Origin: Dromaius novaehollandiae
Taxonomy: Eukaryota > Chordata > Aves > Casuariiformes > Dromaiidae
Length of the DNA stretch: 64,000 bases
Direction: 5' to 3'
Assembly: GCF_036370855.1 (NCBI RefSeq)
Contig: NW_026991466.1
Location: 1-64,000, forward strand
Below, piece after piece: positions 1 to 64,000 of the stretch. A model generated the notes under the pieces. The model ran no database searches, was not told the DNA's origin, and saw nothing but the letters and a program-made list of their open reading frames with translations. Each line of letters starts with the position of its first letter. The stretch's first letter is position 1. A program made the position numbers and the translations under genes.

Positions 1-3000
1 GTGCCCCCCCCGGGCAAGGTCAGTGCCCCCCCCCGGTGTCCTTCCCCCACGTCACCCCCTGCGGCCCCCCCCGTGTCACCTTGGCCCCTCCCAAGGTCTG
101 TGCCCCCCCCATCACCCCCACGTCACCCCCGCATGTCCCCCCCCATCACCCCGCTGCACCCCCCGTGCCCCCCCCGGCCCCCCCCAGCATGGTCTGTGCC
201 CCCCCCCGTGTCCCCCCCCCGCCTGACGCCTCCCCCCCCCAGATCATCCAGCTGAGCCCGGTGCCGGTGGTGCCGCCGCTGAGCCCCGGGGGGGCGGGGG
301 GGGCGCCGGGGCCCCCCCCCAAGGTGCTGCTGCCCTCGGCCGCCCGCATCGCCTACGTGCAGCCGGGGCCCCCCCCCGGCGGCCCCCCCCCGCCCGCCGC
401 CCCCCCCGCCGCCGCCTACGTCCAGCCCCCCGTGGCCCTGGGCTTCACCGCCATCGGCCCGGGGGGGCCCGCCATCGTCCAGCCCCTGCTGCCCGGTGAG
501 GGGCCGGGGGGGGCACGGGGGGGGGCACGGGGGGGCCCTCAGCCTGCCCCACATCGGGGGGGGCCACGGGGCTGTGGGGGGCTGCGGGGGTCCTGCCCCA
601 TGGGGGGGAATGGGGCCGGGGGGGCCGCCATCGTCCAGCCCCTGCTGCCCGGTGAGGGGGTGGGGGGGGTCATGGGGGGGGCAGGGGTGTGGGGGGGGGC
701 TGCCCCACACCGGGGGGGGCCATGGGGCCGGGGGGGCTGCAAACACCCTGCACTGTGGGGGGGCTGGTGCTGGGGGGGGTCTTTGGGGGAGGTCCTGCCC
801 CACAGCAGTGCTATGGGGCTGGGGGGGGGTCTTTGGGGGAGGTCCTGCCCCACAGCAGTGCTATGGGGCTGGGGGGGGTCGGTGGGGGGGGTCCTGCCCC
901 ACAGCGGGGCTACGGCGGGGGTCGGTGGGGGGGGTCCTGCCCCACAGTGGGGTTATGGGGCTTGGGGGGTCGGTGGGGGGGTCCTGCCCCACAGCGGGGC
1001 TATGGGGCTGGGGGGGGGTCGTTGGGGGAGGTCCTGCCCCACAGCGGGGTTATGGCGGGGGTCGGTGGGGGGGGTCCTGCCCCACAGCAGGTCTATGGGG
1101 CTGGGGGGGGTCGGTGGGGGGGGTCCTGCCCCACAGTGGGGCTATGGGGCTGGGGGGGGTCGGTGGGGGGGGTCCTGCCCCACAGTGGGGCTATGGGGCT
1201 GGGGGGGGTCGGTGGGGGGGGTCCTGCCCCACAGCAGTGCTATGGGGCTGGGGGGGGTCGGTGGGGGGGTCCTGCCCCACAGCGGGGCTATGGGGCTGGG
1301 GGGGGTCGGTGGGGGGGGTCCTGCCCCACAGCTGGGCTATGGGGCTGGGGGGGGTTGGTGGGGGGGGTCCTGCCCCACAGCGGGGCTATGGGGCTGGGGG
1401 GGGTCGGTGGGGGGGGTCCTGCCCCACAGCTGGGCTATGGGGCTGGGGGGGGTTGGTGGGGGGGGTCCTGCCCCACAGCGGGGCTATGGGGCTGGGGGGG
1501 GTCGGTGGGGGGGGTCCTGCCCCACAGTGGGGTTATGGGGCTGGGGGGGGTCGGTGGGGGGGTCCTGCCCCACAGCAGTGCTATGGGGCTGGGGGGGGTT
1601 GGTGGGGGGGGTCCTGCCCCACAGCAGGGCTATGGGGCAGGGGGGGGTGTGGGGCAGCCCCCCCTCACCCCCCCGCCCCCCCCCAGGGCAGAGCCCGCTG
1701 CTGGCGCCGGGGCCCGTGGGGGTGTCGCCGCTGCCGGCCCCCCCGCTGCCCCCCGCCTCGGCCGGGCAGGTCATCGCCGCCATCTACCCCGGCCCCCCCG
1801 GCGCCGCCCCCGCCCCCCCCCTCGTCTACAGCGTCGCCGGCTCCGCCCCCGGCCCCGCCCCCGGCTCCGCCCCCGCCATCCTGCCCAAGGGCGGCCCCGC
1901 CCCCAGCCAGGGCCCCGCGGGTAGGACCGGGGGGGTGGGGCGGGGAGGGGGCGGGGCCAGGGGAAGGGGTGGAGCTGGAGGGGGCGGGGCCGGGAGAGGG
2001 GGTGGAGCCAGGGGAGGGGGTGGGGCCGGGGAGGGTGGGGTGATGGGGTGGGGCTAGGGGAGGGGTGGAGCCAATGGGAGGTGGGGTCAAGGCAGAGGAG
2101 GGTGGAGCCCAGGAGGGTGGGTGGGGCTAAGGGGAAGGGGGTGGGGCTAATGGGTTGGGGGTGGGGCTACTGCATTAGGGTGGGGCTAAACGGTTAGGGG
2201 TGGGGCTAATGGAAAGGGGCGGGGCTTAAGGGTTTGTTTATCGAGGTGGAGCTATGGGGAAGGGGTGGGGCAGGGGCGGGGCTATTGGGCTGTGGGTGGG
2301 GCTAAGGGAAAGGGGTGGGGCTGGGGTGGAGCTAGGGACAATGGACTGGCCTATGGGGGCGGGGCTAAAGGAAATGGGTGGGGCTAGAAGGGGCGGGGCC
2401 TTTTGCTTTGTGGGCGGGGTCTGCTGGTGAAACTGGAGCTGGGGGCGTGGCCTGCAGGGAGGGGGCAGAGGCCATGGGGGGGGTCTGCGGGGAGGGGGCG
2501 GGGCCCTGTCCCCATGCCCCGCCCCCCCCACAGGCCCCCTGAGCTTCCCGCCGGCGCCGGCGCGGCCCCCCCGGCCCCCCCCGAAGCCCCCCCAGAAGGT
2601 GAAGGCCGCCATCGCCAGCATCCCCGTGGGCTGCTACGAGGCGCCGCCGCCCCCCCGCGCCCCCCCGGAGCCCCCCCGCGCCCCCCCGGAGCCGCCCTCG
2701 CCCCCCCCGCCGCCCCCGCCGCCCCCCCCGCCGCCGCTGGGGGGGGGAGGCGGCGACTGGGACGGGCGCCCCCCCCCGTCGCCCCCGGGGGCCCCCTCCC
2801 CCCCCGGCACCGAGGCCTGGAGCCAGCGGGACCCCGGCGAGGAGCGGCCCCCCCCCGCCGCCGCCCCCCCCAGCCCCGCCGCCGCCCCCCCGGGGGGCAA
2901 AGCCGCCGACGCGGTGAGTGTGCGTGTCCCCCCCCCCCAAAAAAACCCTGCCCCCCCCAAACCGAGCGCTGACCCCCTCCTTGTGTCCCCCCCCCCCCGC

Positions 3001-63812: not shown

Positions 63813-64000
63813 CTGCGGGCACACGCGTGTGAGCGCGTGTTCAGTGCATGACGTCACGCGGGGCAGTGCGTGTTCACTGCGGGCACACGCGTGTTCAGTG
63901 CATGAGGTCACGCGGGGCAGTGCGTGTTCACTGCGGGCACACGCGTGTTCAGGGCCCGGGGTCACGCGGGGCAGTGCGTGTTCACAGTGGGGGGACATGG
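63795..64000 (-). repeat. Tandem copies of an ETHE1 exon start with acceptor
   Basis: GGGGCAGTGCGTGTTCACTGCGGGCACACGCGTG-type units recur three to four times at about 54-bp spacing (near 63800, 63864, 63918, 63971). On the minus strand each gives GCAG acceptor then TGAACACGCACTGCC, the start of exon 63812-63664. The array runs off the window. Confidence 0.85.

Follow-up and report, generated by a model that had tools for sequence, protein, structure and literature searches.

The locus analysed here raises the question of why short pieces of exon, together with the splice sites that bound them, recur in tandem within the adjoining introns. We examined the opening 64,000 bases (hereafter the window) of C226, a very GC-rich bird contig that is 153,519 bases long and belongs to an assembly of 1.468 Gb in 271 contigs. 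The GC content ranges from 0.64 to 0.81 per 2 kb across the window, and Tandem Repeats Finder (TRF) reported 624 rows covering 60.6% of its bases. The GC content and the repeat load of the contig, which carries no chromosome name, fit a dot chromosome. We consider it very probable that the arrays described below are exon stuttering, that is, the outcome of a duplication process that takes no account of gene structure, while selection protects the original exon.

Genes were placed by tblastn with human probes, by frame composition and by inspection. The window holds the 3' part of CIC, RPS19, CADM4, zinc-finger genes, an LY6-type gene, PLAUR, LYPD3-like genes, PHLDB3 and ETHE1. CADM4 and RPS19 gave intact proteins when spliced across the chosen junctions; the CADM4 protein has 396 amino acids and matched CADM4 5zo1 at 1e-139. 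The ETHE1 model matched 4chl at 1.2e-85, and Pfam found UPAR_LY6 in the PLAUR and LYPD3 models, PH in PHLDB3 and Ribosomal_S19e in RPS19. The part of the CIC model within the window gave no Pfam match, and we take this gene to be CIC from the human probe. In CIC at 3215-3232 (near 3220) a run of seven C puts the reading frame out of step with human CIC; the assembly probably has a homopolymer error there. The models of the genes besides CADM4, RPS19 and CIC are partial only.

On these models, 78 splice edges of 45 exons were set by AG/GT and reading frame. Edges that could not be fixed were dropped before counting: those of the zinc-finger genes at 27 kb and at 29 kb, those of the LY6-type gene (33-35 kb), the PHLDB3 donor belonging to exon 57514-57732, and those of unplaced exons in CIC, PHLDB3 and PLAUR. 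The ETHE1 donor at 62838, apparently a GC donor as judged from the frame, was entered as GC.

In the first test of the edges, a 40-mer of 20 nt of exon and 20 nt of intron was required to have a copy at least 80% identical within 3 kb. At least one such local copy was found at 12 of the 78 edges, namely 2 of 10 in CIC, 6 of 16 in CADM4, 2 of 10 in PLAUR and 2 of 9 in ETHE1. None was found in this test at the 17 edges of PHLDB3, the 8 of RPS19, the 5 of LYPD3 or the 3 of a zinc-finger gene. Copies were present at 8 of 38 donors (CIC 495|496 and 5577|5578; CADM4 16033|34, 16849|50, 20161|62 and 20983|84; PLAUR 38496|97; ETHE1 63663) and at 4 of 40 acceptors (CADM4 16697 and 17923; PLAUR 39349; ETHE1 63812). 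By the same measure 43.6% of all 40-mers in the window had a local copy; when the sequence was shuffled three times under a local Markov model, the share was 0.12-0.25%. In the second test, which used TRF arrays (period at least 15, score at least 100) and required 12 nt on each side of the edge, 10 of the 78 edges lay inside arrays, and all 10 were among the 12 of the 40-mer test.

A third screen followed Hron et al. 2026 (PMC12954441), with exons compared to their adjacent introns by blastn-short (at least 20 nt, bit score at least 42.1). It gave 36 exon-derived hits in 7 of 37 introns, whereas the shuffled control gave one match of at least 20 nt, at 16.4 bits. Of the 36 hits, 32 extend to the exon border or to 1 base from it, and the border hits contain 21-74 nt of exon. 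Border copies were assigned to 8 of the 45 exons; a proline-rich CIC hit of 29 nt, which lies 146 nt away from the border, is one of the 36 but did not count towards these 8 exons.

These results bear differently on the several parts of the original prediction. Its figure of at least ten affected edges agrees with the 12 found, and its span of 2 to about 14 copies with the 1 to 13 or 14 intronic copies per affected edge, the upper figure depending on the screen. Of the five genes that it named, CIC, CADM4, PLAUR and ETHE1 stand, but PHLDB3 does not, as none of its 17 edges passed. The decayed arrays proposed for PHLDB3 dwindle to matches of 19 and 17 nt (30.2 and 26.3 bits) at the acceptor 52057, the sole PHLDB3 edge with any. 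These may be chance, because equally faint matches occur at three other edges (CIC 2534, LYPD3 45052 and ETHE1 61134). The proposed unit of exon piece, GT or AG and intron piece describes the arrays rightly, except that the PLAUR donor copies carry GG.

CIC has two arrays, both on the forward strand. In the exon-end array at 459..740 the donor 495|496 recurs once, at 651|652 (TRF period 156; exon part 34 nt, 97%). In the second, at 5510..5915, the donor 5577|5578 is followed by further donors at 5736 and 5895 (TRF period 159, 2.6 copies). Its exon parts of 68 nt are 97% identical, the 57 nt beside the donor are identical, and an AG lies upstream of each exon part.

Six arrays, all on the forward strand, adjoin the exons of CADM4. 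At the end of exon 2 (15972..16417) the donor 16033|16034 has copies at 16182 and 16339 (TRF period 148; 62 nt parts, 100%). The array at the start of exon 3 (16369..16728) has copies before 16438 and 16562 of the true acceptor, which lies before 16697; the exon parts of 32 nt are 100% identical and AG is kept in 2 of 2. The end of exon 3 (16776..17496) shows the donor 16849|16850 and four downstream copies, the last of which is decayed (parts 52-74 nt, 86-100%). The start of exon 4 (17544..17949), with its true acceptor before 17923, has copies before 17544, 17696 and 17809 (exon parts 27 nt, 96-100%; AG kept in 3 of 3). The exon part of the array at the end of exon 6 (20147..20404; TRF period 52) is short, up to about 15 nt, with bar-crossing hits. 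At the end of exon 7 (20944..22010) the donor 20983|20984 is accompanied by seven donor-bearing copies, six of them above 42.1 bits, and GT is kept in all seven.

PLAUR, likewise on the forward strand, has an exon-end (donor) array at 38484..38798 with a 61-bp period, and an acceptor ladder at 38934..39383 with a 30-bp period, the true acceptor of which would lie before 39349 as judged from the frame. ETHE1 is affected on the reverse strand: the donor 63663 has a single copy at 63396..63431 (36 nt at 100%), and the acceptor at 63812 lies in a TRF array of 54-bp period (63793..63948) in which AG is kept in 2 of 3 copies.

We then asked how many copied edges would be expected if duplications fell without regard to exons. 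When the whole edge set was slid along the window, 34.0 ± 4.9 edges were expected to have a copy in the 40-mer test, against 12 observed, and none of 5,000 shifts gave as few as 12. Shifted edges gave 39.1 ± 4.6 in the TRF test against 10 observed, and 1,000 shifts never fell to that value. Tandem repeats make up more than half of the non-coding sequence, so that blind placement would strike more edges than are in fact affected. Since half of every edge window is exon, the known sparing of exons accounts for part of this deficit. The original prediction had reasoned that ordinary minisatellites would seldom include splice sites and had hinted at an excess of repeats crossing exon edges; neither test supports this. 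Its broader idea, a process active over the whole region with selection keeping one copy, fits the exon-intron gradient, the TRF cover and the frame bias described below.

The same counts bear on an alternative in which duplication targets exon edges, perhaps because it is linked to splicing or to R-loops that form at splice sites. The border position of 32 of the 36 exon-derived hits and the intact dinucleotide in 36 of 43 copies speak for such a mechanism, but the edges fall below the blind expectation in both tests (12 against 34.0 and 10 against 39.1). Moreover, arrays lying wholly outside annotated exons outnumber those crossing an edge by 173 to 14, although some exons are unannotated. 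An edge-directed mechanism is therefore very unlikely.

Repeats are distributed along the exon-intron axis as a gradient. TRF arrays cover 58.1% of non-exon sequence and 11.5% of exon sequence. The fraction of positions with a local copy is 1% at a depth of 60 nt in the exon and 3% at 80 nt; it is 17% right at the edge and 50-58% in introns beyond 160 nt. The value of 14% at 100 nt on the exon side includes many points past the far side of short exons. If each copy is treated as a single hit, edge-crossing duplications would persist at about 0.25 (0.13-0.44) of the rate of non-exon duplications, and exon-internal ones at 0.11. The array period is divisible by 3 in 7 of 9 exon-internal arrays, in 6 of 14 edge-crossing arrays and in 62 of 173 non-exon arrays, and the exon-internal value differs from one third at a one-sided P of 0.008. 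The sparing of exons, the gradient and the frame bias are what a blind process together with selection on the protein would leave. In-frame repeats lie inside coding exons of PHLDB3 (57554-57645, 27 bp) and LYPD3 (47610-47723, 21 bp).

Whether the copies themselves stay functional was judged from retention of the splice dinucleotide. Pooled divergence between copies had been considered as a sign of constraint (exon 10.2%, 117/1147; intron 18.6%, 336/1807), and this contrast was rejected, as BLAST hits had set the exon lengths and the compared intron sequence extends into nested repeats; the retention test was used instead. Copies were chosen on their flanking bases only, with at least 18 of 22 matching, so that retention of the splice site was not selected for and the divergence is truncated. 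GT or AG was kept in 36 of 43 copies, against 39.4 expected from drift at the flank divergence of 4.2% (P 0.09). Since retention is at or below the drift expectation, the copies show no sign of preservation. With the dinucleotide kept in 36 of the 43 copies, the arrays may nevertheless act as competing splice sites.

An alternative interpretation would make the copies functional, as arrays of alternative splice sites kept by selection. The clearest case is the PLAUR acceptor ladder, where 13 copies are spaced 30 nt apart and AG is kept in 11; of the 11 upstream GCAGGGGG sites, 10 are in frame and all 11 are stop-free. The retention of GT in 7 of 7 donor copies of CADM4 exon 7 points the same way. 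Against this, the pooled retention does not exceed drift, 19 of the 21 alternative sites that were read through in CADM4 and CIC lead to a frameshift or a stop codon, and a 30-bp period is a multiple of 3 with a chance of one in three. Functional arrays in general are thus hardly to be expected. For the ladder by itself, we regard it as improbable that it serves as a set of working alternative 3' splice sites, whose in-frame units of 30 nt would insert steps of 10 residues into a urokinase-receptor-like protein. If it did, a change of copy number in a PLAUR intron would become a change of protein length through splicing.

We return to blind duplication followed by selection on the exon, which is favoured because the edges are depleted, the dinucleotides are kept no better than drift predicts and the exon-internal repeats are biased in frame. 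Tandem duplications of tens to hundreds of bases would start anywhere on the GC-rich contig. Where the duplicated segment spans an exon border, its outward copy would enter the intron and bring the exon end and the splice site with it. The original exon would stay whole and in use, with the upstream-most donor or the downstream-most acceptor. Tolerance of such border-crossing events would be intermediate, higher than for exon-internal duplications and lower than for those confined to introns. From two copies onwards, slippage or unequal exchange could alter the copy number, and the copies would drift. The molecular cause of the first duplication, the later unequal exchange and the copy that is spliced are the parts of this scheme that we infer. 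One observation counts against simple drift. The PLAUR donor array has no working donors, because GG replaces GT in all 4 copies, and this is unlike four drift events; a single loss of GT before amplification fits, and would explain the array most simply.

It is worth considering whether mis-assembly or polishing of GC-rich repeats made the extra copies. The apparent homopolymer error near 3220 in CIC shows that the assembly may err, and the copy numbers of such arrays are difficult to assemble. In most arrays, however, the copies differ in substitutions, indels and spacing, four genes are affected, and Hron et al. (PMC12954441) checked a similar case in PHF8 against raw nanopore reads. An artefact is accordingly a poor candidate, to which we attach little weight. 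Least probable of all is that the duplicated pieces gave rise to new introns (intron gain by tandem genomic duplication): the CIC copies 5668-5735 and 5827-5894 do have AG before and GT after their exon part, but the arrays lie inside introns that already separate known exons, the spliced frames read through the chosen junctions, and the CIC pseudo-exon 5678-5735 (58 nt) would shift the frame.

The rest of the genome was sampled with exon pieces of HMG-box genes, 34 of 51 hits with 2.5 kb on each side. Left out were the five best hits (SOX-like, with long open frames), six near-identical hits on C12 and six near neighbours. On contigs longer than 5 Mb, none of 32 control pieces had copies and the median TRF cover was 0. 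In the window 8 of 45 exons have border copies (Fisher P 0.018 for the difference), a contrast to be read with the facts that some of the 34 pieces are neighbours with overlapping loci, that they are not gene-matched, and that HMG hits may miss exon ends. No copies were found at the two HMG pieces on small contigs (L019 and L026; TRF cover 0.65 and 0.21). The former of these contigs (C271, 19 kb, GC 0.774) carries an HMG-box piece that is perhaps the 5' half of CIC, because C226 begins inside CIC.

The rate of exon-edge copying is uneven also along C226, and this unevenness counts against our reading. Copies occur in 7 of 37 introns of the window, with none in RPS19, LYPD3 or PHLDB3, and at 1 of 22 coding segments, cut by eye, in the next 40 kb. 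An exon-edge-like copy of 27 nt at 100% lies beside a coding segment of the same contig (L010:4010-4211). A claim of a higher rate than in chicken (7/37 against 190/5,572 dot introns, Fisher P 0.00025) was set aside, because the window was chosen for the feature and the next 40 kb gave 1/22. The stretch at 20-30 kb of the window had no near-identical second copy among the matches listed in the assembly.

A 14-nt core, GGACGCCTGGGCCC, is dispersed through 12-64 kb of the window and through the next 40 kb (L009-L012). At no more than one mismatch the window has 355 sites and the 40 kb beyond it 352, against 1 site in the 34 control loci (174.7 kb). In bins of 2 kb its orientation tracks transcription in PLAUR (36-42 kb, 94:3) and ETHE1 (60-64 kb, 41:0), and is mixed around PHLDB3. 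We claim no enrichment of the core at edges: 17 edges lie within 45 nt of it, all among the 44 between 30 and 64 kb, a part in which 30.5% of windows have it as a baseline. A similar motif may occur in human 19q13 introns. A literature search on the core and this human relative returned nothing related, as judged by title and the start of the abstract. Since the core recurs across several genes, not every repeat in the window is local. The core and the PLAUR ladder are the loose ends of this analysis. The arrays of intact splice sites offer natural experiments on splice-site choice.

Three known systems resemble the arrays in part. De Grassi and Ciccarelli 2009 (PMC2812944) connected altered splicing in human genes with internal tandem repeats located where exon and intron meet, and the arrays of the window are likewise minisatellites at such boundaries, potentially able to change splicing there. 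Their repeats belong to young human paralogues in segmental duplications, have units of about 30 bp on average and lie half inside coding exons, whereas in the window the exons seem intact and the copies are on their intron side. In a second system, intron gain by tandem genomic duplication (PMC4974935), tandem duplication is also linked to new splice signals; a new intron arises there, while the window arrays consist of copies within existing introns. Beauclair et al. 2019 (PMC6792250) described tandem and G4-forming repeats in GC-rich avian genes, whose introns are made of tandem repeats as here; exon edges copied into introns are not described in the accessible parts of that article.

The closest system is chicken, for which copying of exon edges is already in print as sequence stuttering or exon stuttering, so that the phenomenon is not new in kind. 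According to the main text of Hron et al. (PMC12954441), a lateral part of an exon with its splice donor or acceptor is copied tandemly through the adjacent intron on dot chromosomes. They reported 236 such introns, 190 of them on dot chromosomes (out of 5,572 dot introns), with more than 90% of hits at the exon border and exon parts of 20-187 nt (median 36). They also found 86% of dot introns to be length-variable and local repeat expansions in some other birds, and discussed as causes meiotic gene conversion and the stress that GC-rich or G4 structures place on replication or repair. That main text does not mention CADM4, PLAUR, ETHE1, PHLDB3 or CIC. The window agrees with this description in that the source lies at the border within a base, the copies stand in the adjacent intron and carry the splice site, and the coding exons are intact (CADM4 and RPS19; CIC with one apparent homopolymer frameshift) among GC-rich, repeat-laden introns. 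The expansions in chicken were called strictly local; our exon-edge copies are local by the design of the search (within 3 kb or the adjacent intron), and, unlike the published account, a dispersed core stands beside the local arrays and the contig has no chromosome placement. What the window adds is exon stuttering in a genome other than chicken, detected with the published screen, together with tests in which edges proved depleted against blind placement, dinucleotides were retained no better than under drift, and exon-internal repeats were biased in frame.
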